Source: Calothrix sp. C42_A2020_038 (GTDB lineage: Bacteria; Cyanobacteriota; Cyanobacteriia; Cyanobacteriales; Nostocaceae). From it: a stretch of 64,000 bases of DNA. Under the pieces are notes generated by a model. The model saw only the letters and a program-made list of their open reading frames with translations, was not told where the DNA came from and searched no databases. The stretch spans positions 1 to 64,000 of the forward strand of contig JACYLQ010000008.1 in NCBI GenBank assembly GCA_015272395.1, written 5' to 3'. Position 1 is the first letter of the stretch. Every line of letters begins with the position of its first letter. The position numbers and the translations under genes were made by a program. Shown one piece after another: positions 1 through 64,000 of this stretch.

Positions 1-182
1 CGCTCACTTTATCTAGAGTAGCGAGTCTATTTCTATTCGTCAAGGGGTTTTGCAATTTTTTTTTGGGAAGGCTGTAAATCCCTTAAAGTCAGTGCCTTTA
101 AGTTTTCTACAGGTTGTTTGTTTACAAACTTTTTTTAACTGATTCGGCGGAATTCCCCATCCCAAGTATGCAGCAGGGTGGT
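1..182. other. Edge region without a recognised gene
   Basis: AT-rich sequence at the window edge with a run of T near 57-64. I see no open frame with recognisable protein similarity and no RNA gene. It lies downstream of the minus-strand ABC ATPase gene, so it may hold that gene's 3' end or terminator, but no clear hairpin is visible. Confidence 0.4.
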
Positions 183-911
183 TCACTGTACCTTTCCGGC
201 GCCCAAATAAAGTTCGCCAACTTTAGGGTTATTGAGTAGCTCGAAGCCAGGTCCGGAAATGGCATCGCGTCCAGATTCAAGAACATAACCTCTATCTGCC
301 ATTTCCAAAGCTTTGCGAGCATTCTGCTCAACAAGTACAATTGCCGTACCACTTTGGTTAATCTGCTTGATTTGCTCAAAGACCTGTGTCACTAAAATGG
401 GTGACAACGCCGCAGAAGGTTCATCTAAAAGTAACAAGCTTGGTTCAAGCATCAAAGCTTTGCCCATCGCTAGCATTTGTCGCTCACCACCAGATAAAGT
501 ACCAGCACGTTGGCTACGGCGAGTATGCAATTTGGGAAACATACCATATATTTTGTCTTTTAGCGGTTGCAGCGATGCATCACGAACAAAGGCGCCCATT
601 TCTAAATTTTCTTCAACGCTTAAAGAAGGAAACACATTCGCAATTTGCGGTACGTAGCACATACCATGCTGAACAATTTGGTTTGATTTCAGTCCAACAA
701 TATTCTTACCTTTAAATACAATAGTACCAGTATGGGGAGTCAAAAGCCCAAATATAGTCTTTGCTAAAGTAGACTTGCCTGCACCGTTTGGACCAATGAC
801 AACAACCAACTCTCCAGGCGCCACTTGAAAATTTATACCTTGTAAAATATCTACGTCTTTAATATATCCAGCGTGTACATTCTGTACTTCTAATAAATAC
901 TCAATAGCCAT
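183..911 (-). CDS. Branched-chain/neutral amino-acid ABC transporter ATP-binding protein (LivF/NatE type)
   Basis: ATPase subunit of a LivF-type importer that powers amino-acid uptake at the cytoplasmic membrane. The 242-residue protein has Walker A GPNGAGKST (about 40-48), Q-loop VPQ (87-89), signature LSGGERQ (139-145) and Walker B LLLLDE (159-164), all intact. The frame stays open to an upstream ATG at 956. I chose the ATG at 911 because the family normally begins just before the LLEVQNVHAGY segment and the extra 15 residues look unlike it. No permease, LivG or binding-protein gene is adjacent, so the partner subunits lie elsewhere. NatE of the Anabaena N-I system is a likely relative, but the substrate cannot be read from the sequence. 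Confidence 0.85.
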   Translation of the reverse strand: MAIEYLLEVQNVHAGYIKDVDILQGINFQVAPGELVVVIGPNGAGKSTLAKTIFGLLTPHTGTIVFKGKNIVGLKSNQIVQHGMCYVPQIANVFPSLSVEENLEMGAFVRDASLQPLKDKIYGMFPKLHTRRSQRAGTLSGGERQMLAMGKALMLEPSLLLLDEPSAALSPILVTQVFEQIKQINQSGTAIVLVEQNARKALEMADRGYVLESGRDAISGPGFELLNNPKVGELYLGAGKVQ

Positions 912-1081
912 AAAGGGTAGGTATCCATTTTTCTCAAAGATATTAGTTATACTCATTAGTCATTGTTATTTGGTCAAGAGTAATGAGTTACTTATTAATA
1001 ACGACAAAATAACCATAACAGTCATTAGTCAATAGTTAAGAGCAAACAATCAGACAAATGACTAATGGCTGTTAGGAATAA

Positions 1082-1306
1082 TTATGGTGTTTTTTGTAGG
1101 TCAGGTCGCTCTTCAGGAACAATGGCGCCTTCAACCGGACAAACCTGCAAGCAGATGCCACAGTCGATACAAGTAGCAAAATCAATCCAGTACCAATCCG
1201 TACCTTTAATGTTCTTACCTGGTCCTTCATGAATACAAGCTACTGGACAAGCACCAACGCAGTCAGCAACACCTTCACAAACATTTGTAACAATCGTATG
1301 CGGCAT
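1082..1306 (-). CDS. Small dicluster Fe-S ferredoxin (bacterial 7Fe/8Fe type)
   Basis: A 74-residue soluble electron carrier. The second cluster motif is canonical, CIDCGICLQVCP (Cys 46, 49, 52, 56). The first half has Cys 10, 16, 20 and 24 in the arrangement C-x5-C-x3-CP-x2-C followed by HEGPG. This resembles the first half of Azotobacter-type seven-iron ferredoxins, but with two residues fewer after the first Cys, so one cluster may be [3Fe-4S] or a modified [4Fe-4S]. The purine-rich GAGAGAG before the ATG is a plausible ribosome binding site. It lies between the LivF-type gene and hisZ on the same strand, with 125-174 bp gaps, so co-transcription is uncertain. The redox partner is unknown. 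Confidence 0.88.
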   Translation of the reverse strand: MPHTIVTNVCEGVADCVGACPVACIHEGPGKNIKGTDWYWIDFATCIDCGICLQVCPVEGAIVPEERPDLQKTP

Positions 1307-2686: not shown

Positions 2687-2689
2687 AAA

Positions 2690-12737: not shown

Positions 12738-15301
12738 TTATTAACTCTTAACTCGTTCAACTCTTGCCAAGCTTTGATAATGTTTCCTCGCATTAATGCT
12801 GCGATCCCTGATAATGCTTTAAATTCCCGTTGATTAGGACTCATCTCTAAAGCTGGTTTTAATGCTATTTCGGCATTTACTGGTTGCCAATTATATAAAT
12901 GGACAAATGCCAGGTATGCCCATGCAAAAGGATTTTGTGCATCTAGCTGAGTAACTTTCTCTAAAGATGAGATGGCATCTTTTACCCGTCTTTGTAAGAC
13001 ATCTGTCAGTGCTATCGAATATGCTAAGTCAGAATTATTACCTATATACTTTAAACGATACTGGGCGGCGAGCCGTGCTTGTGATAGATAATCTTGAGTT
13101 GGGTCGTATTGATTAATACGTGCAACTTCATCAAAGATTTCTTCAATGGCTTTAGTACCTTTGGGCAGATTAGATGACATTGTACGTAATTGTGTTACTA
13201 AATCCAATTCCGGCGCCTTTATACTTTGAGCTTGAGGGTCGATATTTATTGTGATGTCGGATACATGAATTGGATAGGTTTCTCCTGAAACTCTGTTTAA
13301 GTAATTTGCTTCTAAAGTGTAATTACCAGGTGTAATTTGAGCGGGTGGTAGCATTGCTGTACGTTCAATGACTTGGAAAGTACCTTCAGTTTTGAGTATT
13401 GTATGTAAATTTCCCATACCTATGGCATGGTCGTGTAAGAAATTACTGTTTTGATTAAAATTATTTTGTTGATGCCAAGTGAGTAAAACTAAACCGTTTT
13501 TTAATTCGTCCCAGGAACCAGACCATTTATAAGTTACTGGTACAGGAAAACCTGGAGGGACTGTTTTGGGAACATTAACTTGTTTAAGAGTAACGGGGAC
13601 AGGAGCTATATTTTTTTCTTGATATACATCTACTGATGAATACTCCAATGGACGAGAGATAATTTCGATCGGTGGTGTTTTTTTGTGATATAGCCTTAAG
13701 AAACTACCATCGTTCAGGCGCCAGTTGGAATGCATGTCAAAATTTGATGATGTTTCAACTGTTTGAACAATATCTTTTTGTGATGATGGAACAGAACCTT
13801 GTTCCCCAGTTTTAGTAACAAACCACGAAAGTGTACGAGCATCTTTTTCAATGTGTTTTTTCCTTGTCCCAACTTGCCGTCCGTAAACTTGAAATTTTGC
13901 TAAAGCACCGTAATAATTGAGATTGTGTTGATTAATTTGGGATGTCGAGGGTAAGACACCTAGAGTTGAACGTAAGTAAGGTTCTGTACGAATTATTTCT
14001 GCTATTACCTCTCTGTGTGGTAAAGAAGCTTGCAAGCCAGGACGATATCTACCATTTGGACTCAGCACTTGTGTAATCCAATCACTCGCAAAATTACCAA
14101 TTGGAAAAAGGTTACATAACGCAAGCAAAAGGGCTAAACCACAAGTACCCCAGCGAATACGCTGCCCTAAAATACCTTTGCCTCGTGTCAGTCCATACGC
14201 TAACAAGACGCTCAATGTTGGCAAATACGGAATTGCATAACGGTCATCTTTATTAACATTTAAGGTTGTAAGCAAATAAGCACCTATTAAAAAAATAGCT
14301 AGCCATCGAAGCGAATAGCCTTCCTTTTTTATCTCCGCTTTGCTTACCTCTCCTCCAAACTTTCCCCAGTAAATTAGCAAGCTCAATATCGGTATCAGTA
14401 GTAAAGGTAATGATACTTGATACGGTAATTGTTGCCAGTAAAAAATCCATGCTTCAAGTGTATCTAACGGGGGATCACCTTCAGCTATCGCTGAGTCAAT
14501 AGTCGCTCGCTTGGCTGATGTCAAAATAATTAACCAATTCGTTTGATACCAACCACCAAATATCAAGCTAGATATCCAGATTCCACCAAACAATTCGACT
14601 AACTTACCCCAATGACGAGCGCGTAAGGCGCCTATCCCTACCCAAATGATTGGAACCAAAAGGAAAAATAATGCAGTTTGTTTAACGAGTAATGCTAGTC
14701 CCAGTGATATTCCAAATAGGGTGACTAAGCACAAGCGTAAAATCCGCGATGAAATAGTTAATTTAGTGGGTTTTGATTCTTGGTGAACAACCAAAATCGT
14801 CAAGAAAAAGAAACAAAGTGTAACAATTGCAGCAAGAGGATAATCGAGAAGAAATTGAAGCCGAAGCTGATAAAGTCCGGGTAAGAACTGACATAAAGCA
14901 GCAGCCCAAAGTCCAACAGTGGCATTAAATAAGACTTTACCTAAACCATATACTGAAAAAAGTAGAATGCCGCTGAAGAGTAGCATTACTAACATGGCTT
15001 GGTCTTGTCCCGTGCCAAATACACTTTGAATCAAGCCTGCAATAATATAGATTAGCGGTGGAATTTTAGAAGACAATAGCCAGAAACTTTGCCACCATTC
15101 CTTACTATCGAACTGAATGTTTTGTAATGCCCGCCAATAGTTTAATGTCCCCGTCAAATAATCAGCTTGATCCCATCCTGGGATTGAATTATCCAACGAC
15201 AACCATATCCGGTCACATATGGCGCCTAAACCCCAAATGACCAGTAGTATCAAAACATTAGGGAAAATATTTTTAAAATTAAAAGAAAAGTGTTTAACCA
15301 C
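12734..15301 (-). CDS. Membrane glycosyltransferase, GT39/ArnT-like, with C-terminal TPRs
   Basis: An 855-residue integral membrane protein. The first about 420 residues hold roughly 10-12 hydrophobic helices. Acidic residues in early loops (WDQADYLTG near 44-52 and FLLDYPLAA near 150) fit the catalytic loops of GT-C enzymes that use polyprenyl-phosphate sugar donors. A long exported region with beta-rich sequence follows (about 425-690), then TPR-like helices (about 735-855, for example NPFAWAYLAFVHLYNWQPVN). Family members glycosylate proteins or lipids on the outer face of the membrane. The acceptor is unknown. It is a single gene, converging on the hybrid kinase gene (4-bp overlap). The start ATG is the first in the frame. 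Confidence 0.8.
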   Translation of the reverse strand: MVKHFSFNFKNIFPNVLILLVIWGLGAICDRIWLSLDNSIPGWDQADYLTGTLNYWRALQNIQFDSKEWWQSFWLLSSKIPPLIYIIAGLIQSVFGTGQDQAMLVMLLFSGILLFSVYGLGKVLFNATVGLWAAALCQFLPGLYQLRLQFLLDYPLAAIVTLCFFFLTILVVHQESKPTKLTISSRILRLCLVTLFGISLGLALLVKQTALFFLLVPIIWVGIGALRARHWGKLVELFGGIWISSLIFGGWYQTNWLIILTSAKRATIDSAIAEGDPPLDTLEAWIFYWQQLPYQVSLPLLLIPILSLLIYWGKFGGEVSKAEIKKEGYSLRWLAIFLIGAYLLTTLNVNKDDRYAIPYLPTLSVLLAYGLTRGKGILGQRIRWGTCGLALLLALCNLFPIGNFASDWITQVLSPNGRYRPGLQASLPHREVIAEIIRTEPYLRSTLGVLPSTSQINQHNLNYYGALAKFQVYGRQVGTRKKHIEKDARTLSWFVTKTGEQGSVPSSQKDIVQTVETSSNFDMHSNWRLNDGSFLRLYHKKTPPIEIISRPLEYSSVDVYQEKNIAPVPVTLKQVNVPKTVPPGFPVPVTYKWSGSWDELKNGLVLLTWHQQNNFNQNSNFLHDHAIGMGNLHTILKTEGTFQVIERTAMLPPAQITPGNYTLEANYLNRVSGETYPIHVSDITINIDPQAQSIKAPELDLVTQLRTMSSNLPKGTKAIEEIFDEVARINQYDPTQDYLSQARLAAQYRLKYIGNNSDLAYSIALTDVLQRRVKDAISSLEKVTQLDAQNPFAWAYLAFVHLYNWQPVNAEIALKPALEMSPNQREFKALSGIAALMRGNIIKAWQELNELRVNN

Positions 15302-29542: not shown

Positions 29543-29575
29543 ATAATTGCAAGCAATATAGTTGGGGTGCGTTCA
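29532..29575. terminator. Inverted repeat at the 3' end of the acyltransferase gene
   Basis: AACGCACCCCAA (29532-29543) pairs with TTGGGGTGCGTT (about 29562-29573) across a loop of about 18 nt. It overlaps the stop of the minus-strand acyltransferase gene, so it could end that transcript. The long loop and lack of a T-run make this uncertain. Confidence 0.4.
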
Positions 29576-30967: not shown

Positions 30968-30991
30968 AACAGAAGCTAGGGGCTAAAGGAA

Positions 30992-35743: not shown

Positions 35744-35812
35744 TCAATTCACTTCGTTTGCAGATTGTTGCTAGCGTTATCACTCTTAACTCCTAAATTT
35801 TGATTTTGACCT

Positions 35813-37543: not shown

Positions 37544-37555
37544 ATAAATACAAAG

Positions 37556-37584
37556 ATTCCCGACTTCCTCAAGAAGTCGGGAAT
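37556..37584. terminator. REP-like hairpin, CCCGACTTCT family (copy 2), probable bidirectional terminator
   Basis: ATTCCCGACTTC ... GAAGTCGGGAAT hairpin placed 12 bp after the permease stop and 4 bp before the convergent ctaE stop. The tail-to-tail position makes a shared terminator likely, although no T-run is present on either side. Confidence 0.65.
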
Positions 37585-37588
37585 ATGA

Positions 37589-38206: not shown

Positions 38207-38239
38207 GAAGATTAATTATTTAAAGGACAATAAAGAGTT

Positions 38240-38345
38240 GGAAGTTATAAGTTAGGAGTTATGAGTTTAATAAAATCGGAAGTTACAAGTTAAAAACTTA
38301 TTTCTTTCTTAACTTCTAACTACTAACTGCTAACTCATAACTCAT
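38240..38345. repeat. AGTTA-type heptamer repeat cluster
   Basis: Imperfect tandem units such as AAGTTAG, GAGTTAT and AACTTCTAACT on both strands, able to fold back on themselves. It lies in the ctaD-ctaE gap. Similar clusters occur near 4551-4590, 15350-15395 and 42715-42790. Confidence 0.6.
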
Positions 38346-38353
38346 AACTTGAT

Positions 38354-40096: not shown

Positions 40097-40169
40097 AAGA
40101 AAAAATTATGTTTGGCAAGCAGCCAGCGTTTGACTTACAGGATTAAGCATGACGCTGCTACAAGCATTA

Positions 40170-41258: not shown

Positions 41259-41725
41259 GGTGGATTTACGCTCTCCGACTTACTAATTCTTGGAACTAAC
41301 TGCTCACTCTCTTACTACGGTAATCCAGCGTATACGACATGGAGTAGTAGAAGGTGAAATAATTATTAATTTTTTAGAGTTAAGTTTAATTGTCAAATGT
41401 ATGAAAATTCTTAACCACAGAGGATGGTAGACGCATATCTGAACAAAAAAATGCAGGAATTACAATAATGACTGCTTACATGCTGTTTACAACTTAAAAA
41501 ATCCCTAAAGCTTTTAACAAGTCTAGTTTGGCTATCCTTAAACTGGTTAGTAGTAAAGCATCGAATATCTCCAACTATGAATCTATAAGCTAGGGTGGAG
41601 AAGAGCAAGGCACATTCTTGGGAATTATCTTTCTTAAGCCTTTTTTAATCAAAGTGTGCTTTTGTTACTGAATAAAATACGTTCCGTCAGTATAGTTAAT
41701 TTCTAGCGGGCAAAAGGTATCATTC
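41259..41725. promoter_or_regulatory. Divergent ctaC / ctaA intergenic region
   Basis: 467 bp between the two divergent oxidase-related transcripts. Promoters for both must lie here. I cannot assign -10/-35 boxes with confidence and see no gene, RNA or repeat. The ctaA ribosome binding site AAAGG lies about 9 bp before its ATG. Confidence 0.5.
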
Positions 41726-42706
41726 ATGAGCGAGTTTGTCCTTGAACAACAGAACATAGCAACAGAAGCTCAAGCAGAAGAACGAATTCGTCGCTTGGTC
41801 TGGAAGATTTCTGTAGCTACATTGATTTTAATCGCGATTGGTAGCGCTACCCGTGTGATGAATGCTGGACTCGCTTGTCCTGACTGGCCCCTGTGCTATG
41901 GAGAATTGGTTCCAGCAAAACAAATGAACCTTCAAGTCTTCTTGGAGTGGTTTCACAGGTTAGATGCTGCATTGATTGGCTTTTCATCGCTCATACTCGT
42001 AGTATTAAGCTGGTGGAAAAGACAGCAATTACCAACTTGGCTTCCTTGGGCAATTACATTTGCTCTATTCCTGATTGTTTTCCAAGGTGTATTGGGCGGT
42101 CTAACAGTTACTCAATTGTTACGATTTGATATTGTAACGGCACACCTGGGAACGGCATTATTATTTTTCATAACTTTGCTAGTTATTGGTGCGGCTTTAA
42201 CACCTTATCAAGGAACTGGAACTGTAAACAATTTACCTTGGGTAGGTTTAACTGCTGCAATCTTAGTGTATGTCCAAAGTTTACTGGGTGCTGTAGTTGG
42301 GTCACGCTGGGCGCTTCACCAATGTTTTGCAGGATACCAACTCTGTGGTGTGATGTATAGTCACATTTTTGGCTTAATACCACCAACAGTTGCAATTGTA
42401 TCCTTAGTAGTAATGTCATGGCGAACTCCTGCATTACACCCAGCCTTAAGAAAACTCGCTAATATGGCAGGTGGGTTGCTTGTTCTCCAGATTTTGTTAG
42501 GAATAGCAACATTTCGACTTCATCTTCAGGTTGAGCCACTCACTGTATCACACTCCTGTGTCGGCGCCACACTACTAGGAACTTTAGTTGTGTTTACAGT
42601 TTTAGGTATTCGTGACGCGCGCACTAATTCCCAAACTGAACTCCCATTCGCAGGTAACAGTGCTGTTAACCGAACAGGTTCACAACCAGCAGAATCAAAT
42701 TCATAA
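41726..42706 (+). CDS. ctaA: Haem A synthase (COX15/CtaA family)
   Basis: A 326-residue membrane enzyme with about eight helices that oxidises haem O to haem A for the oxidase. Conserved His-bearing segments of the two four-helix bundles are visible: LACPDWPLCYGE, FLEWFHRLDA, TAHLGTALLF, ALHQCFAGYQLCG, YSHIFGL and TVSHSCVGATLLG. The tail (TNSQTELPFAGNS...) is hydrophilic. It lies upstream of ctaB with a 224-bp gap of repeats, and divergent from ctaC, giving the usual cyanobacterial cox locus. Confidence 0.92.
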   Translation: MSEFVLEQQNIATEAQAEERIRRLVWKISVATLILIAIGSATRVMNAGLACPDWPLCYGELVPAKQMNLQVFLEWFHRLDAALIGFSSLILVVLSWWKRQQLPTWLPWAITFALFLIVFQGVLGGLTVTQLLRFDIVTAHLGTALLFFITLLVIGAALTPYQGTGTVNNLPWVGLTAAILVYVQSLLGAVVGSRWALHQCFAGYQLCGVMYSHIFGLIPPTVAIVSLVVMSWRTPALHPALRKLANMAGGLLVLQILLGIATFRLHLQVEPLTVSHSCVGATLLGTLVVFTVLGIRDARTNSQTELPFAGNSAVNRTGSQPAESNS

Positions 42707-42854
42707 AAAGAGATAGGAAGTAGGAAGAGTTCGGAGTTATTGAGGTATGAGTTATGAGTTGTGAGTTCAAAGCTAAGAAAAAGCTAAAAATTTAATCAAG
42801 TGTGAGTTTTTTTTAATCTTAACTTCCAACTTTGCGCCTCCACGCCTCCGTACA

Positions 42855-42872
42855 GACGCGATTAATCGCGTC
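42855..42872. repeat. Palindrome GACGCGATTAATCGCGTC
   Basis: A perfect 18-bp palindrome in the ctaA-ctaB gap, set in a GTACA...CCCTAC context similar to the 28-bp palindrome after hrcA (26127-26154). Probably another copy of a dispersed palindromic repeat. Confidence 0.6.
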
Positions 42873-42930
42873 CCTACTCCTCACTCTCCATCCTTCCCAG
42901 TTGTTTGATAAATAAGGAACTAGTGCCAAA

Positions 42931-43887
42931 ATGATTGAGACTAATGTCTCGAGACACCACCAAACTTTTCTACAAGTGGTTCAGAGCTACTTGGAGCTCA
43001 CTAAACCCCGTATTATCCCATTACTACTAATTACAACCGCTGGTAGCATGTGGATTGCTGCCAAAGGACAAGTAGACCCATTACTTTTGTTGGTAACTCT
43101 AACTGGTGGTACTTTGGCGGCTGCTAGTGCCCAAACAATCAATTGCGTCTATGACCGGGATATTGATTATGATATGGAGCGGACGCGCCACCGCCCTTTG
43201 CCTTCAGGTAAAGTCCAATCGCGCGATGCTTTAATTTTTGCAATTGTACTCGCCGTTCTTTCGTTCACACTTTTATCTGTCTTTGCCAACGTTCTAGCCG
43301 CCCTTCTCGCGATGTCGGGCATTGTATTTTATGTGTTAATTTATACACATCTTCTCAAACGACACAGTACCCAAAATATTGTTATTGGCGGCGCCGCTGG
43401 TGCAATTCCGGCTCTAGTTGGCTGGGCAGCAGTTACAGGAACTCTTAGCTGGGCAGCATGGTTAATTTTTACTATCGTCTTCGTTTGGACACCTCCCCAT
43501 TTCTGGGCACTGGCGTTAATGATTCGAGATGATTACGCAAAAGTAGGTATACCAATGCTACCAGTGGTTGCAGGCGCCAAAGCAACCGTGCAACAAATTT
43601 GGTGGTACACCATAATTACAATAGCTGCAAGCTTTATGCTGATTTATCCCCTGCATCAGACAGGCATTATTTATGCTGTAGTCGCGGTTTGGTTAGGTGG
43701 TATATTTGTACGTAAAGCCTGGAAATTGCGACAAAATCCAGAAGACAAATCAGCAGCTAAAGGTTTGTTCCTATATTCGATTTCTTACATGATGCTACTT
43801 TGTCTAGGTATGGTGGTTGATAGTCTCCCCATCACTCATCATGCTATTGATTTTGCAGTTACTAGATTACATCTACTTGTGGGATAA
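42931..43887 (+). CDS. ctaB: Protoheme IX farnesyltransferase (haem O synthase)
   Basis: A 318-residue UbiA-family prenyltransferase that adds a farnesyl chain to protohaem, giving haem O, the substrate of CtaA. It has about eight or nine membrane helices and both Asp-rich motifs: [20 protein letters not shown] (first, about 72-91) and the second around [36 protein letters not shown] at the N-terminus is also typical. The ATG follows ATAAGGAA. A REP-like hairpin follows the stop by about 35 bp. Confidence 0.95.
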
Positions 43888-43920
43888 AATTTCCTCTCTC
43901 CAAATCAAATATTTATTTAA

Positions 43921-43951
43921 GAATCCCGACTTCTTGAAGAAGTCGGGATTC
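43921..43951. terminator. REP-like hairpin, CCCGACTTCT family (copy 3), probable ctaB terminator
   Basis: GAATCCCGACTTCTT pairs perfectly with AAGAAGTCGGGATTC (15-bp stem, 1-nt centre). It lies just after ctaB and is followed by a T-rich stretch, so it can serve as a terminator as well as being a repeat copy. Confidence 0.7.
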
Positions 43952-44053
43952 TTGTTTACTTAATTCTTAATATTTTTTCATATACTTTTGCCTATTTGCG
44001 AAATAATTTTGGGAAACATAACTTTGTTCACCGAAAATTTTGATCAAGTAATA

Positions 44054-45685
44054 GTGTCCAATTCTATCCACAAATATGTTGCTTACTCTTTAATATTCAT
44101 TCTCTCTAGTTGTCAGCATAGTTGTCAGCCAAAAAAGATTGAGCATCCAAAAAAATTAGAGCCTCTACCTCAAGACCCTTTCATTCAAGTTTATTTTAAT
44201 CATTCAGAAACTTCAGAGTATCAAGAAGCCTATAGAGATAAAAAGCGCTTGGGGGATGATTTAGAAAAACAAATTGTTGATACAGTCAAGAGTGCAAAGT
44301 CATCTGTAGATATTGCGGTTCAAGAGTTGCGCTTACCCGGAGTTGCACAAGCCATAGTTTCCCAACATCAAGCTGGAGTTAAGGTGAGATTGATTATAGA
44401 AAATACATATAATCGTCCTTGGAGTAGTTTATCACCACAAGAAGTTAAAAAACTTCAACCAAGGGAGCGTCAAAAATATAAAGAATATCGTAGTTTTGTG
44501 GATTTAAATCAAGATGGTAAGCTAGATACTAGCGAAATAAACCAACGCGATGCTTTAGTGATTCTCGATAATGTAATCACAAGACTCGATGACACATCTG
44601 ATGGCAGTCGGGGTAGTGGTTTAATGCACCATAAATTTATAGTCGTCGATAACCGCTTTGTAATTGTCACATCAGCTAACTTTACCCTCTCAGATGTTCA
44701 CGGTGATTATAGCAAACCTGAAACTTTGGGTAATGCTAACAACTTGGTAAAAATTGACAGTCCCGAAATTGCTGCGGTATTTACTGAAGAATTTAATTTG
44801 ATGTGGGGAACCGGAACCAAAACTAAAGGTAATCAAAAATTTGGACTGAAAAAACCAGTACGGGCGCCAAAGAAAATAAAATTAGGTGATAGTACAGTTA
44901 CTATAAACTTCTCACCAATTTCTCCAACTCAACCCTGGATAAATAGTAGTAATGGGTTAATTAGTACTATTTTATTAGCAGCAACACAATCTGTTGATAT
45001 GGCGTTGTTTGTTTTTTCCGAACAGCGACTCGCTAATATTCTAGAAGAGCGTCATCAACAAAATGTTAAAATCCGTGCGTTACTCGAAAAAAGCTTTGCA
45101 TATCGTTCCTACAGCGAAGGTTTAGATATGATGGGTTTTGCCCTTAGCGATAAATGCAAGTACGAAATTGATAACAAACCCTGGCGCCATCCCCTTACGA
45201 CTGTTGCCATACCTTCTTTACAACAGGGTGACTTACTACATCATAAATTCGGTGTAATTGATAATCAAACAGTGATTACAGGTTCACACAACTGGTCAGC
45301 AGCAGCTAACAGTGGTAATGATGAAACGCTTTTAATTATTGAAAATCCTATCATCGCTGCTCATTACACGCGCGAGTTTGAAAGGCTATATAAAAAATCA
45401 CAACCTGGATTACCAGAAAAAATTCAGCAAAAAATCAAATCTCAACAAAAAGAATGTTCAAAAATAGACTCACCATCAACAATTGAAAATAAATCTGTAC
45501 AAATTAACTTAAATACTGCAACTCTTAGCGAACTTGAAGCACTTCCCGGCATTGGTAAAAAAACAGCACAGCAAATCATAATTACTCGTCAACAGAAACC
45601 TTTTACATCATTGAAAGATTTAAAACAAGTAAAAGGTTTAAGTTATAGTAAGCTACAAAAATTACAAGGTTATGTCAGTTTTTAA
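44054..45685 (+). CDS. Phospholipase-D-like lipoprotein with EF-hand loop and ComEA-type helix-hairpin-helix
   Basis: Two HKD half-sites are present: LMHHKFIVVDN with SANFT, and LLHHKFGVIDN with SHNWSAAANSGND. A PLD-superfamily phosphodiesterase or nuclease active site is therefore likely. Between the start of the first half and its HKD, a calcium EF-hand loop DLNQDGKLDTSE is encoded at 44501-44536. The C-terminus (from about 45490) is a helix-hairpin-helix DNA-binding repeat, INLNTATLSELEALPGIGKK. With a GTG start at 44054 the N-terminus has a signal ending in ILSSC, a lipobox. A TTG at 43988 would add 22 residues; I judge the GTG better but not certain. Together these suggest a surface DNA- or lipid-acting enzyme. 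Confidence 0.82.
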   Translation: MSNSIHKYVAYSLIFILSSCQHSCQPKKIEHPKKLEPLPQDPFIQVYFNHSETSEYQEAYRDKKRLGDDLEKQIVDTVKSAKSSVDIAVQELRLPGVAQAIVSQHQAGVKVRLIIENTYNRPWSSLSPQEVKKLQPRERQKYKEYRSFVDLNQDGKLDTSEINQRDALVILDNVITRLDDTSDGSRGSGLMHHKFIVVDNRFVIVTSANFTLSDVHGDYSKPETLGNANNLVKIDSPEIAAVFTEEFNLMWGTGTKTKGNQKFGLKKPVRAPKKIKLGDSTVTINFSPISPTQPWINSSNGLISTILLAATQSVDMALFVFSEQRLANILEERHQQNVKIRALLEKSFAYRSYSEGLDMMGFALSDKCKYEIDNKPWRHPLTTVAIPSLQQGDLLHHKFGVIDNQTVITGSHNWSAAANSGNDETLLIIENPIIAAHYTREFERLYKKSQPGLPEKIQQKIKSQQKECSKIDSPSTIENKSVQINLNTATLSELEALPGIGKKTAQQIIITRQQKPFTSLKDLKQVKGLSYSKLQKLQGYVSF

Positions 45686-45718
45686 TTTTTATCTTATGGT
45701 ATGAGTTTAAAAAGTATC

Positions 45719-45838
45719 AAATAACCTAACCCCTAATCCCTGAAGAGGAACAAGAAAATAAAGGTTTCAAAGCCTCTCCCCGACACGGATAGAGGTTTAC
45801 CAGAGGTATATAATATATATTTTTAAACTTTTCAAATA
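45719..45838. repeat. Dispersed CCTAACCCCTA...GAGGTTTACCAGAGG repeat (copy 1)
   Basis: Shares ACCTAACCCCTA, AAAGGTTTCAAA-type, GAGGTTTACCAGAGG and CTTTTCAAA segments, in the same order, with 60420-60556. A partial inverted copy lies near 55800-55857. No coding capacity. Confidence 0.65.
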
Positions 45839-45982
45839 TCGTCTAAGAGATGAAAGCTTCTAAATTTAAGTCAAATTTTAATAAATGCTAAGTATATACT
45901 CACTTTAGCTGCAATAATCATAGTATGAAACAAAAAGCATAACTACGCTAACGATATTTTATTGTTTGAGTGAATTACCAGA

Positions 45983-46657
45983 GTGTACACTGTCCCTAAA
46001 TTATTTAAAAACCTGGATATCCGACCACGAATACTGATTTCTCTTGTCGGCGCCGTTTTATTTGCGACACTACTGTTACCGTCTTGGTTACATTTATCTG
46101 CCCGTATTTTATGTGGCTGGAACATTGGTGTTGACTTTTTTTTAGCCTGGACTTTGTGGAATATGTTCAGAGCAACTCCAGAGAAAATGCGTCGCTACGC
46201 TTTAACTGAATATCAAGGTCGTTTAGCACTTTTGCTATTAGTCACTGCTGGCGCAAGTGTAAGTATTTTTGCAATTGGATTTTTGCTTTCTGATACAAAA
46301 AAACTTTCAATCACACTAGTAGTATTACATGTTGGACTTTCAGCTTTAACCATTGTTAGTTCTTGGTTACTTGTGCATACGGTGTTTGCATTAGAATATG
46401 CGTACAATTATTATCATTACTCGAGTATTAACAGTAAACGAGAAGAACCATGCTTAGATTTTCCTTGTGAAGATGAACCTGACTACTGGGACTTTTTATA
46501 CTTCTCTTTTGTTATTGGTATGACTAGCCAGGTTTCTGATGTTCAAATCACATCACGCTTGATGAGGCGCCTAGCATTGTTACACGGGATAATCTCTTTT
46601 TTCTTCAATACTTCAATTTTAGCAATGAGTATCAATATTATTGCAGAACTTTTTTAG
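45983..46657 (+). CDS. DUF1345 family membrane protein
   Basis: A 224-residue protein with about five membrane helices. The pattern RPRILISLVGAVLFATLL, ILCGWNIGVDFFLAWTLW, ALEYAYNYYHY and DEPDYWDFLYFSFVIGMTSQ followed by VSDVQITSRLMRRLALLHG is the DUF1345 signature. Function is unknown. The start is a GTG at 45983; I see no better ATG before the conserved region. A palindromic repeat begins immediately after the stop codon, so the 3' boundary is sharp. Confidence 0.85.
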   Translation: MYTVPKLFKNLDIRPRILISLVGAVLFATLLLPSWLHLSARILCGWNIGVDFFLAWTLWNMFRATPEKMRRYALTEYQGRLALLLLVTAGASVSIFAIGFLLSDTKKLSITLVVLHVGLSALTIVSSWLLVHTVFALEYAYNYYHYSSINSKREEPCLDFPCEDEPDYWDFLYFSFVIGMTSQVSDVQITSRLMRRLALLHGIISFFFNTSILAMSINIIAELF

Positions 46658-46704
46658 GTGAACTACCCACACTTCCGCTTACGCGGTAAGTGTTGGTAGT
46701 TCAC
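46658..46704. repeat. Palindromic element GTGAACTACC ... GGTAGTTCAC
   Basis: Arms GTGAACTACCCACACTTCC (46658-46676) and GGTAAGTGTTGGTAGTTCAC (46685-46704) pair with two mismatches. It starts directly at the stop of the DUF1345 gene and ends about 10 bp before the first recognisable codon of the truncated GNAT gene. It has the look of a small mobile hairpin or the end of an IS200/IS605-type element, which is inferred only. Confidence 0.65.
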
Positions 46705-46714
46705 AATTTTATTT

Positions 46715-46966
46715 ATCGATGAAACCGAGTATTGGGAGAAAGGTATTGGTAGCAAACTTATATCAGCGGTTGTCAACTATCTGTTTGAAGAGCTTGGCGC
46801 CCAGAAAATTGTTATCGACCCAGAAACTTGGAACACGCGCGCTATCCACTGCTACGAAAAATGTGGGTTTGTCAAAGTCAAATTGCTGCCCAAGCACGAG
46901 TTGCACGAAGGAGAGTATCGAGATAGTTGGTTAATGGCTATAGACAAGAATAAATCAGTACACTAG
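46715..46966 (+). pseudogene. C-terminal fragment of a GNAT acetyltransferase (AAC(6')-like)
   Basis: The plus strand reads IDETEYWEKGIGSKLISAVV, then NYLFEELGAQKIVIDPETWN and TRAIHCYEKCGFVKVKLLPK, ending at a TAG. This is the C-terminal half of an aminoglycoside 6'-acetyltransferase-like GNAT protein, with the acetyl-CoA loop EKGIGSKL intact. The N-terminal half (about 80-90 residues) is missing and a palindromic element takes its place, so the gene looks truncated by insertion or deletion. There is no in-frame start codon with a ribosome binding site. Confidence 0.75.
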
Positions 46967-46999
46967 TAGTTAACTGCGCGCCATTATCATACTTTATCA

Positions 47000-48187
47000 A
47001 TGTCTCAACAATCTGCACGAATTTGTATTCTAGGTGGAGGTTTTGGCGGTCTTTATACCGCTTTACGTCTCAGTCAGCTACCTTGGGAACAGAAACCAGA
47101 AATTGTTTTAGTTGACCAAAGTGACCGTTTTCTCTTTTCTCCTTTGTTGTATGAACTTTTGACTGGGGAGCTACAAACTTGGGAAATCGCTCCACCCTTT
47201 ACCGAACTACTGCAAAATACAGGTGTACGTTTCTGTCAAGCAGCAGTAGCTGGAATTGATGTTGACTCCATGAGTGTTCACTTACAAAATGGTCCCGAAA
47301 TTAACTGCGACCGTTTAGTTTTGGCGTTAGGTGGTGAAACTCCGCTTGATATGGTTCCAGGAGCAACATCTTACGCATACCCATTCCGTTCAATTACAGA
47401 TGCATACCGTCTCGAAGAACGTTTACGAATTTTAGAAGAATCTGAAAAGGACAAAATTCGTATCGCCATAGTCGGCGCCGGTTACAGTGGTGTGGAATTG
47501 GCATGTAAGTTATCTGACCGACTAGGTGAACGGGGTAGGTTCCGATTAGTTGAACTTAGTGACCAAATTTTACGCACTTCTCCCGAATTTAATCGTGAAG
47601 CTGCGCGAAAAGCTTTAGAAAAATATGGAGTTTTTCTCGACCTGGAAACTAAAGTAGAATCAATTAGCCAAGATAGTATTACCCTTGAATATAAAAACCA
47701 AGTTGATACTATCCCAGTTGATTTGGTGATTTGGACAGTAGGAACACGAGTATCTCCTGTAGTTCGTAGTCTTCCCTTAAAGCAAAATCAGCGCGGTCAA
47801 ATTACTGTCGAACCAACTCTACAGGTGGCTGACTATCCTGTTATTTTTGCATTAGGTGATTTAGCAGATTGTCGTGATGCTGAAGGACAACAAGTACCTG
47901 GTACTGCTCAATCAGCCTTGCAACAAGCTGACTACACGGCGTGGAATATTTGGGCAAGTTTAACAAACCGTCCATTGTTACCTTTCCGCTATCAGTATTT
48001 AGGCGAAATGATGACATTGGGTATTGATAATGCAACCCTAACAGCATTAGGACTTAAGCTCGATGGACCGCTTGCTACTATTGCTCGCCGTACAGCTTAC
48101 TTATATAGAATGCCAACATTAGACCACCAGTTAAAAGTTGGTTTTAATTGGCTTGCACGCCCAATTATTGAAGCGCTGTCAAGTTAA
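47000..48187 (+). CDS. ndbB: Type II NAD(P)H dehydrogenase, NdbB-like
   Basis: A 395-residue flavoprotein that passes electrons from NAD(P)H to membrane quinone without pumping protons. It has an FAD-binding dinucleotide fold at the N-terminus (GGGFGGLY), a second NAD(P)-binding fold around IAIVGAGYSGVELA (about 155-168), and FALGDLADC in the C-terminal FAD-contact segment. Among cyanobacterial NDH-2 proteins the sequence fits the NdbB branch, whose Synechocystis member reduces demethylphylloquinone in vitamin K1 synthesis. Branch assignment is by pattern and should be checked. The ATG start gives normal length. Confidence 0.82.
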   Translation: MSQQSARICILGGGFGGLYTALRLSQLPWEQKPEIVLVDQSDRFLFSPLLYELLTGELQTWEIAPPFTELLQNTGVRFCQAAVAGIDVDSMSVHLQNGPEINCDRLVLALGGETPLDMVPGATSYAYPFRSITDAYRLEERLRILEESEKDKIRIAIVGAGYSGVELACKLSDRLGERGRFRLVELSDQILRTSPEFNREAARKALEKYGVFLDLETKVESISQDSITLEYKNQVDTIPVDLVIWTVGTRVSPVVRSLPLKQNQRGQITVEPTLQVADYPVIFALGDLADCRDAEGQQVPGTAQSALQQADYTAWNIWASLTNRPLLPFRYQYLGEMMTLGIDNATLTALGLKLDGPLATIARRTAYLYRMPTLDHQLKVGFNWLARPIIEALSS

Positions 48188-48396
48188 TAGTTGTTGTGTT
48201 TGATCACCGTTCAAACCCTAACCCCCCGCGCGGGGGGTATAAGAGAAACTTAAATACAACTTTAAACTACCTTTATAATCTTTCGGTTTTTTTATTCAAA
48301 AACGTGTAAATACTTACCGATTAGTTTATTTCTTGGGAAACCCAGAATATAATAATCGGTATTTACTCTGACGATAAGAAAAAGTTTATTATATAT

Positions 48397-49074
48397 ATGT
48401 CGAAACCGAAAGTTTTATTTCTCGATGCAGTTGGTACCTTGTTCTCTGTCAAAGGCAGTGTTGGTGAGGTATATAGCCAAATTGCAAGAGAGTTTGGAGT
48501 TGATATATTACCTGAAGCTCTAAATCAAGCCTTTTACGAAAGTTTTAAAGCTGCACCCTCTCCTAAATTCCCGGATGCAGAAGTTCAAGATATACCTCAG
48601 CGTGAGTTTGAATGGTGGTATGCCATCGCGCGTAAAACCTTTGAAAGTGCAGGCGCCTTACAAAAATTTGCTGACTTTGAAACATTTTTTAGCGAACTTT
48701 ATATTCATTTCGGCACTGCTGAACCTTGGTTTGTTTACCCCGATGTTATTCCGGCTTTAACTAATTGGCGCAAAAAAGGAATAGAATTAGGTATAATATC
48801 TAACTTCGATTCACGAATATTTTCAGTACTTCAAGCTTTAGAATTGCGAGATTATTTTGACTCAATTACTATTTCTACCCAAGTCGGCGCCGCTAAACCT
48901 GAGCCAAAAATCTTTGGTATCGCATTAGCAAAGCACAACTGTCCTGCGGAAGAAGCTTGGCATGTTGGTGACAGTAAAAGTGAAGACTACCACGGTGCAA
49001 AAGCAGTAGGAATACGAGGAGTTTTAATTACACGGGTAGGGACACAGCAAAAAGTCCTTGTTGGCGCCAGTTGA
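48397..49074 (+). CDS. HAD-IA family hydrolase (REG-2/HDHD3-like)
   Basis: A 225-residue haloacid-dehalogenase-fold hydrolase. Motif I reads FLDAVGTLF (8-16), so the second Asp of the usual DxD is Val, as in the REG-2/HDHD3 group. Motif II is ISNFDSR, motif III AAKPEPKIF with its Lys, and motif IV WHVGDSKSEDYHGAKAVG. Loss of the acid/base Asp may change the reaction from standard phosphatase activity. The substrate is unknown. A helical cap domain (about 25-95) is present. It is a single gene 210 bp after ndbB with a CCCCGCG-rich spacer between. Confidence 0.85.
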   Translation: MSKPKVLFLDAVGTLFSVKGSVGEVYSQIAREFGVDILPEALNQAFYESFKAAPSPKFPDAEVQDIPQREFEWWYAIARKTFESAGALQKFADFETFFSELYIHFGTAEPWFVYPDVIPALTNWRKKGIELGIISNFDSRIFSVLQALELRDYFDSITISTQVGAAKPEPKIFGIALAKHNCPAEEAWHVGDSKSEDYHGAKAVGIRGVLITRVGTQQKVLVGAS

Positions 49075-49147
49075 GGTTGATATAAAGTTATAAAGTAATT
49101 CAACCCGGTTTTTTATATTGATTTTGCCTAGTGATTCATATCATTAA

Positions 49148-58379: not shown

Positions 58380-59663
58380 ATGACTAAGACAAATTTTGAC
58401 TTTCTTACCACTTCCGACCCTGCTGTTGCAGAGTTAATTAACAGCGAACTTCAACGTCAACGTGATCACTTAGAGTTAATTGCGAGTGAAAACTTTACTT
58501 CTGCTGCGGTACTTGCTGCTCAAGGTTCGGTACTTACAAACAAATATGCCGAAGGTTTACCTGGCAAACGTTACTACGGGGGCTGTGAGTATATCGATAA
58601 AATTGAGCAGCTAGCGATCGACCGCGTTAAAGAATTATTTGGCGCCGCTCATGCGAACGTTCAGCCTCACTCTGGTGCCCAAGCAAACTTTGCTGTGTTT
58701 TTGACTTTGCTTGAACCTGGTGACAAAATCATGGGGATGGACTTATCCCACGGTGGACATTTAACTCATGGTTCACCAGTAAATGTATCGGGTAAATGGT
58801 TCCAAGTTTCGCACTACGGTGTAGACCAACAAACCGAACAACTTAACTTTGATTCGATCCGTGAGCAGGCGCTTAGGGAGCGTCCTAAGCTCATAATTTG
58901 TGGTTATTCAGCATATCCACGTACTATTGACTTTGAAAAATTCCAGAGCATTGCAGATGAAGTTGGCGCCTACTTGCTAGCAGATATTGCTCATATTGCT
59001 GGATTAGTAGCCACAGGAAACCATCCCAACCCTATCCCTTACTGTGATGTTGTAACAACAACAACTCATAAAACTTTACGCGGTCCTCGTGGTGGTCTAA
59101 TTATGACCCGCGATGCCGAACTGGGTAAAAAATTAGATAAATCAGTTTTTCCTGGTACTCAAGGTGGTCCTTTAGAACACGTGATCGCAGGTAAAGCTGT
59201 TGCGTTTGGTGAAGCTCTTAAACCTGAGTTTAAAGCTTATTCAACTCAAGTCATCGAAAACGCCCGCGCGATGGCTAACCAATTACAAGAACGAGGTCTA
59301 AAGATTGTTTCAAATGGAACAGATAATCATTTGATGCTCGTAGATTTACGCAGTATAGGCATGACAGGCAAACAAGCCGACCAACTTGTAAGCACTGTAA
59401 ATATTACTGCGAACAAAAATACTGTTCCATTTGACCCAGAGTCACCGTTTGTAACTAGCGGCTTGCGCTTAGGTTCGCCAGCCATGACCACACGTGGGAT
59501 GGGAACATCTGAATTTGTTGAAATTGCTAACATTATTGCCGACCGTTTAGAAAATCCTGATTCAGATGTGGTTGCTGAGGATTGTCGGCGCCGTGTTGCT
59601 TCGTTGTGTGAAAGATTCCCCCTCTATCCACATATTCAAATTCCTGTACCAGCTTTAGTGTAG
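58380..59663 (+). CDS. glyA: Serine hydroxymethyltransferase
   Basis: A 427-residue PLP enzyme that interconverts serine and glycine with tetrahydrofolate, supplying one-carbon units and taking part in photorespiratory recycling. The PLP-binding Lys is Lys231 in [14 protein letters not shown]. Other conserved segments are [20 protein letters not shown] near residue 38, LPGKRYYGG and [15 protein letters not shown]. Length and ends fit the bacterial enzyme. It is a single gene, followed by a REP-like hairpin. Confidence 0.97.
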
Positions 59664-62250: not shown

Positions 62251-62828
62251 AACGTATTATTGGATTAACTGGTGGTATCGCCACAGGCAAAAGCACTGTG
62301 GCGAATTATTTAGCAAATACTTATAAATTACCAATATTAGATGCAGATATTTACGCACGCGATGCTGTTGCAGTTGGTTCAAGAATATTAGATGAAATTG
62401 TACAGCGTTATGGTAAAGATATCCTATTATCAAATGCAGAATTAGACCGGGCAAAGTTAGGCGAAATTATTTTTCAAAATCAAGCTGAACGTGTTTGGTT
62501 GGAAAGCTTAATTCATCCCTACGTCAGAGAAAGATTTAATCAAGAAATATCTATATCATCTAGTAATATAATAGTACTAGAAATTCCTTTGTTGTTTGAA
62601 GTTGGAATGACAGATTTAACAACAGAAATTTGGGTAGTGAGTTGTTCGGAATCGCAGCAGTTAGAGCGATTAATGCAACGCAACAAATTAACTTTAGAGC
62701 AAGCGCAAGCCAGAATTAAAAGTCAAATGCCACTAGCTGAAAAAATAGTGCGCGCGGATGTAGTACTAGATAATTCGCTTTCATTAGAAACGCTTTTGAA
62801 ACAAGTGGATTTGGCAATTCAAATATAG
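62247..62828 (+). CDS. coaE: Dephospho-CoA kinase
   Basis: A 193-residue P-loop kinase that phosphorylates dephospho-CoA in the last step of coenzyme A synthesis. The P-loop is GLTGGIATGKST (6-17), followed by ILDADIYARD with the conserved Asp, IHPYVRERF and VVLEIPLLFEVG-like IVLEIPLLFEVGM. Length fits the family. ATGA overlap with hemD makes it the third gene of a cobA-hemD-coaE transcript. No other CoA pathway gene is near. Confidence 0.95.
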   Translation: MKRIIGLTGGIATGKSTVANYLANTYKLPILDADIYARDAVAVGSRILDEIVQRYGKDILLSNAELDRAKLGEIIFQNQAERVWLESLIHPYVRERFNQEISISSSNIIVLEIPLLFEVGMTDLTTEIWVVSCSESQQLERLMQRNKLTLEQAQARIKSQMPLAEKIVRADVVLDNSLSLETLLKQVDLAIQI

Positions 62829-63196
62829 ATCAAGTAAAGTTTAAGTAAATATTTATACAATTTTTCTTGATATCCTTGACAGGGTTTCTTTGCTCCTAGT
62901 GGTTCATGTCATTAATTTTGGGTTGCTGTGGAACAGGTGTTCCCGACTATGAATTTAGCAAGCAATAATACGTACTATACAATATATTATTTATACTACA
63001 AAAACTAAGAGCATGAATCAGTAGAAGGTTTGACTCGTTTCAAATAGTGAAACAGAATGCTATTGATGCGAAAAATGACCTATTTTGGATGCGAAGAATG
63101 TTATGAGTAGTTCAGACATTCTTAACGTCCGTGCAACAAAAACTCTACAACGGATATCTAAATTGAAAGTAATTCTAAAAATATCGCTTACAGCAA
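62829..63196. other. Intergenic region upstream of the HtrA-type protease
   Basis: 368 bp, AT-rich, with a partial MITE-like repeat at 62899-62947. No gene or RNA recognised. The promoter of the protease gene must lie here but cannot be placed. Confidence 0.45.
62899..62947. repeat. Partial MITE-like repeat (end of copy-B family)
   Basis: GTTCATGTCATTAATTTTGG then GTTGCTGTGGAACAGGTGTT matches, in inverted orientation, the right end of the element at 29201-29327. The other end is absent, so this copy is truncated. Confidence 0.6.
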
Positions 63197-64000
63197 ATGT
63201 TAAACAAAGAACCACGCGACCAATATAATAGTGAATCTAATTTAGAGATTGCAAACCCCCAAAACCGTAAGTCAAGACTTTGGGGGCGAGCAGTGTTTAA
63301 CTTATCACTGGTATTATTAGGATCTGGGATGACTCTTGCTGGCGGTTACATAGCTGGACAGCAGCAAAAGGACACATCTAATTTAGTTGTAGGTTCAGTT
63401 AATGCTGCTCCTGCACTTGGCGATAATAATTTTGTTATAAATGTCGTTAATCGGGTTGGACCAGCAGTTGTACGAATTGATTCTTCGCGTACTGTCAGAG
63501 CTTCATTGCCTGATGAATTGAGCGACCCGTTCTTCCGTCGCTTTTTTGGCGCCGAAGGTGCTATTCCACAACAAAAGCGGGTAGAGCGTGGTACTGGTTC
63601 AGGATTTATTCTGAGTAAAGATGGTCTGATTTTAACTAATGCCCACGTGATTGATGGTGCAGATACTGTAAAGGTAACGCTAAAAGACGGGCGTAGCTTC
63701 CAAGGTAAAGTTCTTGGTAAAGACGAGTTGACTGATGTTGCGGTTGTCAAGATTCAAGCAAATAATTTACCGACAGTAACGCTTGGAAATTCCGATCAAT
63801 TGCAACCGGGTGAATCTGCTATTGCAATTGGCAACCCACTCGGTTTAGACAATACCGTTACTACTGGTGTTATTAGTGCAACTGGGCGTAGTAGTAACCT
63901 TATCGGCGCCCAAGATAAGCGTGTTAGTTATATTCAAACTGACACTGCAATTAATCCAGGTAACTCTGGTGGTCCTTTGCTTAACTCTAGGGGTGAAGTT
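63197..64000 (+). CDS. HtrA/Deg-family trypsin-like serine protease (5' part, cut by window end)
   Basis: 268 codons of a periplasmic or membrane-bound serine protease. A hydrophobic segment (about 35-56, [21 protein letters not shown]) anchors or exports it. The catalytic triad is seen: His in LTNAHVIDG, Asp in [11 protein letters not shown] and Ser in NPGNSGGPL. Cyanobacteria usually carry HhoA, HhoB and HtrA of this type, and the C-terminal PDZ domain expected of them lies beyond the window. The start ATG at 63197 has a weak upstream purine-rich segment. Which paralogue it is cannot be told from this part. Confidence 0.92.

Follow-up and report, generated by a model that had tools for sequence, protein, structure and literature searches.

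GGCGCC as the probable alternate highly iterated palindrome of a Calothrix lineage, and a candidate solitary methyltransferase

What stands in for the highly iterated palindrome (HIP) HIP1 in a cyanobacterium that has almost none of it? The question is raised by the opening 64 kb of a contig (200,872 bases) of Calothrix sp. C42_A2020_038 (draft genome of 6.53 Mb in 50 contigs). In this stretch, hereafter the window, the octamer GCGATCGC (HIP1) was counted 0 times and the hexamer GGCGCC 83 times, and both counts in the preliminary description of this DNA proved exact. GGCGCC is enriched about 13-fold, HIP1 has been lost, all seven genus genomes examined share this state, and single sites are conserved between species. 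Probably, GGCGCC is the alternate HIP of the genus: GG(m5C)GCC, made by a solitary enzyme, would have taken over the job of HIP1, and the sites would then have been held. The role of HIP1 has been open for decades; studies of selection for HIP1 have reportedly been published elsewhere. Alternate HIPs offer a natural experiment on this role.

The swap to GGCGCC is already known in one strain. In Elhai (2015; PMC4390886), GGCGCC replaces HIP1 in Calothrix PCC 7103 as an alternate HIP, GrCGyC methyltransferases are noted, and a mismatch-repair ratchet directed by G-mC is proposed. The material described there is a single genome and 19 kb from strain D253; exceptional HIPs are presented as sporadic rather than arranged in clades, which is taken to indicate that HIP1 is the only one to persist. 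The preliminary description was right in outline and is partly supported, yet what it described had been published for one strain. The HIP of PCC 7103 described there and that of the genus agree in word, density, HIP1 loss and GrCGyC methyltransferase type. What is new is the persistence across the clade, the conservation of orthologous sites, an enzyme that is apparently solitary and passed on vertically, and a second case that is probably convergent. In contrast to the sporadic view in that text, GGCGCC is shared by 7/7 genus genomes at orthologous sites, and this sharing weakens the published case for alternate HIPs being sporadic and failing to persist within clades. The open-licence literature yielded no later paper on this word in Calothrix.

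Abundance and distribution of GGCGCC

The sites in the window were located by exact count, as follows.

1..64000, palindromic, both strands: GGCGCC array, alternate highly iterated palindrome, 83 sites
First bases of GGCGCC sites 1-42: 198, 591, 817, 1124, 2047, 3976, 4365, 5374, 6607, 7738, 7999, 8448, 11953, 13212, 13717, 14627, 15221, 16477, 16596, 17309, 17622, 18105, 18318, 18727, 20006, 21430, 21575, 21888, 23310, 23636, 23925, 25921, 26483, 26816, 28405, 29381, 29633, 30495, 30620, 31263, 31677, 32040
First bases of GGCGCC sites 43-83: 32451, 33760, 35233, 35942, 36368, 36585, 37184, 37319, 37494, 38054, 39281, 39806, 40671, 40879, 42563, 43390, 43573, 44863, 45183, 46049, 46566, 46796, 47474, 48652, 48886, 49063, 50806, 51323, 51552, 52577, 53100, 56613, 57137, 57674, 58641, 58965, 59587, 60672, 61013, 63548, 63905
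13666..13671, palindromic: CGATCG, the HIP1-core hexamer, one of just two in the window (the other at 58615)
58614..58620: GCGATCG, the closest approach to HIP1 found here (7/8 bases; direct count, one occurrence in the window)

The last two are the HIP1-related pieces that had been reported near 13666 and 58615. GGCGCC occurs on average once per 777 bp, with gaps of 119 bp (minimum) to 3513 bp (maximum). Base composition predicts 3.5 sites, and GGCGCC has the highest observed/expected (O/E) ratio of all 64 palindromic hexamers of the window. Simulated Markov chains gave 5.1 (order 1), 4.3 (order 2) and 12.0 (order 3, with a maximum of 22 in 60 simulations). Order-4 chains gave a mean of 44.4 and a maximum of 67, an expectation that is high because the chain inherits the sub-words of GGCGCC itself.

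Over the whole genome, 7475 GGCGCC sites (1144 per Mb) were found versus 2 of the reversed control, CCGCGG; GCGATCGC was found 147 times (22.5 per Mb) versus 37 for its reversed control. CCGCGG is itself avoided (0 in the coding sequence of this genome versus 29.9 in codon shuffles), and synonymous-codon shuffling within genes was therefore the stronger control. In 484 kb of coding sequence, GGCGCC was counted 616 times versus 46.0 in the shuffles (O/E 13.4). The coding samples of Calothrix NIES-4105 and PCC 7103 gave 207 versus 16.8 (O/E 12.4) and 263 versus 20.1 (O/E 13.1), respectively. The excess over these controls is thus neither a local nor a compositional effect. The preliminary description had proposed a lineage-specific, HIP-like motif in strong genome-wide excess, and had named a near-background count of GGCGCC, or abundant GCGATCGC elsewhere in the genome, as what would reduce it to local composition; the genome-wide figures bear out the proposal.

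Genes were delimited by crude open reading frame (ORF) calls, with no gene predictor. In the window, 74/83 sites lay in ORFs of at least 100 amino acids (aa), where 65.5 were expected from the coding fraction alone; the claim that the sites lie almost entirely inside genes thus shrinks to a modest bias. Codon phases 0/1/2 were occupied by 43/15/16 sites. In 604 kb of the genome, 616/691 sites were inside such ORFs and 75 between them. With respect to the features that define a HIP for Elhai (2015), GGCGCC is a GC-rich, over-represented outlier among palindromes, lies in the range of ~1000-2000 per Mb and is accompanied by low HIP1; frequent GCGATCGC, the property of HIP1 proper, was not found in the window or in the 6.53 Mb (0 and 147 sites).

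The genus set (n = 7) was composed of the present genome, Dulcicalothrix desertica PCC 7102 (G060) and Calothrix sp. PCC 7103 (G061), HK-06 (G062), NIES-4105 (G063), FI2-JRJ7 (G064) and PCC 7716 (G065). These seven and 210 others made up the family set of 217 genomes. GGCGCC was dense in all seven (1144 per Mb in the present genome; 1701, 1526, 1545, 1511, 1711 and 1644 per Mb in the relatives, calculated from rounded genome sizes, with 1526 for PCC 7103), and 0/210 of the others exceeded 111 per Mb. GCGATCGC stood at 4-23 per Mb in 7/7 genus genomes versus at least 200 per Mb in 206/210 others. For the genome as a whole, then, GGCGCC does take the place of HIP1. Relatives of like G+C content (G027, 0.388; G189, 0.375; G184, 0.372) had 0, 0 and 1 GGCGCC in 54-60 kb. 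The family genomes with low HIP1 (G182, G184, G191 and G194, with 9, 104, 82 and 50 per Mb) were without GGCGCC enrichment, and no palindromic hexamer in 60 kb of G184 exceeded ~2.5 fold over composition.

In a scan of 388 genomes of the class, only the present genome and one from another family (G435) had more than 1000 GGCGCC per Mb at more than 3x the reversed control. Several genomes of family f16 also had more than 1000 per Mb, at ~1.6-2.8x the control, which we read as an effect of high G+C. Two further genomes (G561 and G448) had 399 and 220 GGCGCC per Mb alongside HIP1 at ~520 and ~970 per Mb.

Retention of sites between species

Codon alignments of orthologous genes were built for the window and for additional stretches of the genomes. 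Two parts of the window were used.

29572..32954 (query 73-3455): stretch for site-by-site comparison; matching DNA, whole or in pieces, in 6/6 other genus genomes
33221..49084 (query 3722-19585): second comparison stretch; matching DNA in pieces in 6/6 other genus genomes; ABC transport and cytochrome-oxidase genes by our reading of the ORFs

Gapped sites and those with changed amino acids were excluded from the retention counts (2 changed out of 34 sites for PCC 7103; 2 gapped and 8 changed out of 54 for NIES-4105). Identity at four-fold degenerate positions between the present genome and its relatives was only 0.57-0.62, and synonymous positions are therefore far diverged. GGCGCC was kept in PCC 7103 at 29/32 sites with the same amino acids, whereas 5.2 would be predicted by these codons at other places in the genes concerned; in NIES-4105 it was kept at 37/44 sites versus 6.5. 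A bootstrap over genes for the PCC 7103 comparison gave 0.75-1.00 observed versus 0.14-0.20 expected. In the reverse direction, the present genome kept 29/41 of the PCC 7103 sites and 37/60 of the NIES-4105 sites, in line with its lower GGCGCC density. Fifty-six distinct sites had at least one comparable relative; 42 were kept in all comparable relatives, 11 in some and 3 in none.

Pooled totals (e.g., 159/177) count one site of the present genome against several close relatives, and the retention argument therefore rests on the single-pair figures. Three results given below are pooled: the ranking of hexamers, the profile by position and the HIP1 figure for the outgroups. For excess retention, GGCGCC was rank 1 among 1629, 1539 and 1855 hexamers in three comparison sets. 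Four-fold differences from PCC 7103 numbered 5/63 within the motif versus 1090/2672 outside it (a rate 7.0x slower), and those from NIES-4105 14/92 versus 2218/5071 (3.9x slower). In the profile over six relatives, four-fold identity was 0.87-1.00 at the six motif positions and 0.52-0.55 far outside; immediately flanking the motif, it scattered between 0.00 and 0.88, with few counts per position. Conservation does not extend beyond the 6 bp of GGCGCC.

An equivalent test was carried out on HIP1 in five outgroups, the HIP1-poor G184 among them. GCGATCGC was rank 1 of 4645 octamers (36/64 kept versus 5.5 expected), and GGCGCC and HIP1 therefore behave alike. Both are palindromes present about once per kb and retained in excess between species; they differ in word and in position. 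A one-for-one swap at HIP1 positions was rejected: 263/263 comparisons of an outgroup HIP1 site with a genus genome showed neither GGCGCC nor HIP1 in the genus, and 0/109 comparisons of a GGCGCC site of the present genome with an outgroup overlapped HIP1. In 58/109 of the latter, the outgroup hexamer differed at two bases. For positions, then, the notion that GGCGCC takes the place of HIP1 fails; the code has been rewritten at new places.

A candidate methyltransferase and a second case

A methyltransferase had been suggested as the keeper of the motif, and a candidate C5 enzyme was found, from a family specific for GRCGYC. The genome has seven C5 methyltransferases and a fragment. One of the seven, of BsaHI/HindV type (G000:C32:50744-51724, 327 aa), has orthologs of 80-90% identity in 6/6 genus relatives; the other six share 23-30% identity with it. 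The seven genus enzymes form one clade (support 0.998). The enzyme matches PF00145 and TIGR00675 (the NCBIfam match is to the general C5 model) and carries the C5 methyltransferase motifs GPPCQ, ENV, QxRxR and GNAVP, as well as the target-recognition stretch YYYRHPRSYERRAIFSIDEPSPTIRGVNRP. A search of solved structures returned only general C5 relatives, of which M.HaeIII was the best, with no indication of specificity.

In 6/7 genus genomes, the gene is flanked by a RuBisCO-like gene and a GHL10-domain gene (identified by Pfam on four neighbours; the GHL10-side neighbour in FI2-JRJ7 is a 172-aa piece). The RuBisCO-like gene (L235:9326-10498 on contig C32 of the present genome) is directly upstream of the methyltransferase in those 6/7. 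The copy matched in HK-06 is at a different place, adjoins a truncated second copy and has ANAVP instead of GNAVP; pieces at two contig ends may be the chromosomal copy of that strain.

A relative with 56% identity to the candidate, hindVM, is encoded on an E. coli plasmid, where it adjoins hindVRP, whose protein matches PF09519. According to the 2008 BsaHI paper (PMC2413257), M.BsaHI methylates the central C of GRCGYC; by the residues named there, the target-recognition stretch of the genus has the R, plus A/G at the position as we counted it. PMC8565308 lists GRCGYC methylation for H. influenzae Rd. On the strength of such relatives, we infer GRCGYC specificity for the genus enzyme. In Elhai (2015), the enzymes associated with HIP1 recognise GATC and CGATCG, whereas the candidate for GGCGCC would recognise GRCGYC. 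The methylated base for GrCGyC is listed there as unknown, and the BsaHI paper gives it as the central C (PMC4390886, PMC2413257). A second gene copy, suggested as critical by Elhai, is missing in the present genome, where 1/7 C5 methyltransferases is HindV-type (PMC4390886).

The genus enzyme belongs to the same family as the methyltransferases of the BsaHI/HgiDI/HindV type II systems. Those systems have an endonuclease; the HindVP-type endonuclease (PF09519) was found in 0/7 genus genomes (other endonuclease families were not searched), and GGCGCC is enriched rather than avoided. Among the 210 other family genomes, 55 carry a HindV-type methyltransferase and 43 a PF09519 match (42 over the cut-off), and 39 have both. 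The median GGCGCC per Mb was 0.71 with both (39 genomes), 8.5 with the methyltransferase alone (16), 1.2 with the endonuclease alone (4) and 5.1 with neither (151); for both versus neither (0.71 versus 5.07), p = 1.7e-6, uncorrected for phylogeny. GGCGCC is lowest where the system is complete, which supports the GRCGYC specificity. The 16 genomes with the methyltransferase only all keep HIP1, at no less than ~329 per Mb.

Further methyltransferase genes were noted. A C5 methyltransferase fragment (a 93-aa frame) lies in the window at 21473-21571 on the minus strand, between two ORFs; it is 77% identical over 66 aa to a 403-aa enzyme at G000:C13. Second HindV-type methyltransferases, ~60% identical to the core copy, were found in relatives (L034, L019, L035, G061:C10, G062:C60, G063:C3 and G065:C2), several of them on plasmids (AP018291 and AP018292 of NIES-4105; AP025019 of PCC 7716). 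Their number is a lower bound, as no more than 10 initial candidates per genome were scored. The present genome has no second HindV-type copy.

G435 provides a second case. It has 74 HIP1 sites in 3.8 Mb; of its genus-mates, G281 has 134 and two others have 3110 and 3424. In 375 kb of G435 (G+C 0.545), CGGCGCCG was counted 475 times (1266 per Mb), and in 100 kb of coding sequence 119 times versus 16.9 in shuffles, with 251 versus 104.5 for plain GGCGCC (samples L120-L127 and L242-L254). CGGCGCCG is likely the HIP of this genome. One of its three C5 methyltransferases (L257) is of HindV type and 52.6% identical to the enzyme described above; it branches apart from the Calothrix enzymes in the tree. 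No HindV-type enzyme was found among the eight C5 methyltransferases of G281, G423 and G461 (identity of at most 37%). Within 1.5 kb of L257 are a ferritin-like gene, a NUDIX gene, a 152-aa ORF with no match and the beginning of a gene with an HSDR_N domain; no PF09519 match was found within that distance, and the rest of G435 was not searched. The HIP1-bearing genus-mates share an enzyme (L255/L256) that may be the CGATCG enzyme; the C5 methyltransferases of G435, of G281 and of the present genome are at most 37% identical to it. G435 is thus a probable independent repeat of the pairing of HIP1 loss with a HindV-type enzyme. The test was a single guess that came true and, as 55/210 other family genomes carry such an enzyme, is moderate evidence when taken alone. 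In G281 (L128-L130), which has its 134 HIP1 sites in 3.7 Mb, no GGCGCC-type word was seen; the top palindromes in 60 kb were TGGCCA and AGGCCT, only 1.5-2 fold over codon shuffles.

Mechanism, rival explanations and other palindromes

The sequence of events considered probable can be put as follows. The solitary enzyme would be the former half of a GRCGYC restriction-modification system. The HIP1 methylation code would have been lost, after which GG(m5C)GCC would take over the role of methylated HIP1 in other cyanobacteria. The mark would be a G-m5C present on both strands roughly every kb, and mismatch repair or replication could plausibly use it to tell the strands apart or as a landmark. 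GGCGCC sites would have arisen mostly through synonymous change and would then be kept by purifying selection on the site or by repair machinery able to recognise the methylated word. Of the forces considered, purifying selection on the methylated mark, or repair that reads the methylated word, fits best.

Gain and loss were reconstructed by parsimony in a five-genome clade, where 36 sites were present in every genome and the remainder were scored as 12 losses, 2 gains and 10 ambiguous cases (small numbers). The synonymous gain between close relatives that had been anticipated was therefore not what was found; the sites are mostly old and retained. Among single-base losses, 8/11 were transitions at the inner C:G, which lends indirect support to a GG(m5C)GCC mark. 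The product of deamination (GGTGCC/GGCACC) was compared with codon shuffles. It was not depleted in the present genome (126 observed/108 expected) or in PCC 7103 (59/54), whereas other near-misses were, and this is likewise indirect support for the mark; HK-06 was slightly below expectation (10/12). Repair of T:G (Vsr-like) with over-correction was rejected as the driver, since its prediction, depletion of GGTGCC/GGCACC below other near-misses, was not seen in the present genome or PCC 7103; a vsr gene was not searched for.

Spacing was tested in distance bins and codon phases against a null in which occupied sites were permuted among the places allowed by the protein; its short-range expectation may be inflated by repeats in low-complexity proteins. 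In five samples, a second GGCGCC within 50 bp was found 20 times versus 75.5 under the null, with partial depletion to 200 bp. No overall depletion was found at 400-800 bp (489 observed/518 null; one of the five samples was low, at 0.84) or at 800-1600 bp (1007/964).

Several points weigh against the account preferred here. We infer both the modification and the base when we say that the genus enzyme methylates the inner cytosine to give GG(m5C)GCC. The ortholog comparison is based on only 18-37 genes per pair involving the present genome. The excess is not visibly renewed in the five-genome clade, where losses outnumber gains 12 to 2. The methyltransferase alone was rejected as a sufficient cause: the 16/210 family genomes that carry it without the endonuclease are unenriched (median 8.5, maximum 42.6 per Mb). 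GGTGCC/GGCACC is depleted in D. desertica (11/17), NIES-4105 (26/54), PCC 7716 (7/16) and FI2-JRJ7 (8/17), which therefore tells against non-depletion as a general rule. A GRCGYC-specific enzyme is expected, yet only GGCGCC is enriched; in the coding sequence of the present genome the other members are depleted (GACGTC 0 versus 40.4 and GACGCC/GGCGTC 11 versus 77.9 in codon shuffles). A plain GRCGYC mark does not explain an excess of GGCGCC only; Elhai's G-mC requirement would. Finally, sites exclude one another mainly within 50-200 bp, and Elhai's saturation at ~1 kb is thus not seen.

A broader proposition is put forward tentatively, and we hold it to be possible rather than probable: cyanobacteria would need a G-m5C palindrome about once per kb, the word itself would be interchangeable, loss of the HIP1 code in the presence of a solitary GRCGYC methyltransferase would lead to a GGCGCC-core word being written at thousands of new and largely synonymous positions, at least two independent switches would have occurred (GGCGCC in the genus and CGGCGCCG in G435), and the sites would be selected. 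If this were true, a HIP would be a selected, re-writable epigenetic code and not a mutational by-product. If the word changes with the methyltransferase and density and retention stay, it is the methylated mark, not the word, that would carry the function. The genus supplies seven genomes at graded divergence, three with PCC numbers, in which selection, biased repair and methylation are separable.

The strongest rival is a pure mutational ratchet, in which GGCGCC sites are functionless by-products, generated and fixed by mismatch repair directed by G-mC (Elhai 2015). It fits the link to a relative of M.BsaHI, an enzyme that methylates the inner C, the near-absence of GACGTC with depleted GACGCC/GGCGTC, and a density near 1 per kb, and it requires no selection coefficient on thousands of sites. 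However, regional repair would shield the flanks as well, and four-fold conservation stays within the six motif positions; no ratchet is visibly running in the five-genome clade, given its balance of losses and gains, and there is no overall second-site depletion at 400-1600 bp. On balance, it was considered unlikely. Under a second rival, GGCGCC would be an uptake or recombination signal, a self-recognition word as in Neisseriaceae and Pasteurellaceae, with sites kept by biased incorporation. Density of ~1 per kb and site-by-site conservation would be in keeping with uptake sequences, but this idea predicts neither the association with a methyltransferase nor the repeat in G435, and it is very improbable. 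A restriction relic, in which the genus still has a GRCGYC-cutting activity and GGCGCC is the best-protected member, was judged slightly less probable again. The strong depletion of GACGTC and GACGCC/GGCGTC in the genus, like that of GGCGCC in relatives with a HindV-type system, speaks for it; against it, the HindVP-type endonuclease was found in none of the seven genomes in a search of that family only, avoidance of three words cannot yield a 13-fold excess of a fourth, and relatives with the full system lose GGCGCC too (the median of 0.71 per Mb). An artefact of composition or codon usage, for which the 44 of 83 sites reproduced by order-4 chains might be cited, is refuted by the counts of genus versus family and by the codon shuffles (O/E 12-13), as order 4 inherits the excess and the like-G+C genomes G027, G189 and G184 have next to no GGCGCC.

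Other palindromes also depart from expectation. In the present genome and the genus coding samples, GACGTC was counted 0-1 times and CCCGGG 0 times (CCGCGG, 2 in 6.53 Mb), and GATC stood at 0.12-0.30 of its codon-shuffle expectation. The near-absence of CCGCGG, GACGTC and CCCGGG and the low GATC point to several restriction pressures, past or present. A weaker second palindrome, CGCGCG, exceeded its codon-shuffle counts ~3-8 fold in samples from 7/7 genus genomes (286 versus 40.8 in the coding sample of the present genome), and GCGCGC was ~2-4 fold over; neither was enriched in five outgroups. The samples for CGCGCG were C22, C24 and C1 of the present genome, L072-L089 and L158-L177. CGCGCG was retained from clade A to NIES-4105 at 35/39 sites versus 19.0 expected (pooled), and from the present genome to the others at 25/60 versus 15.0.

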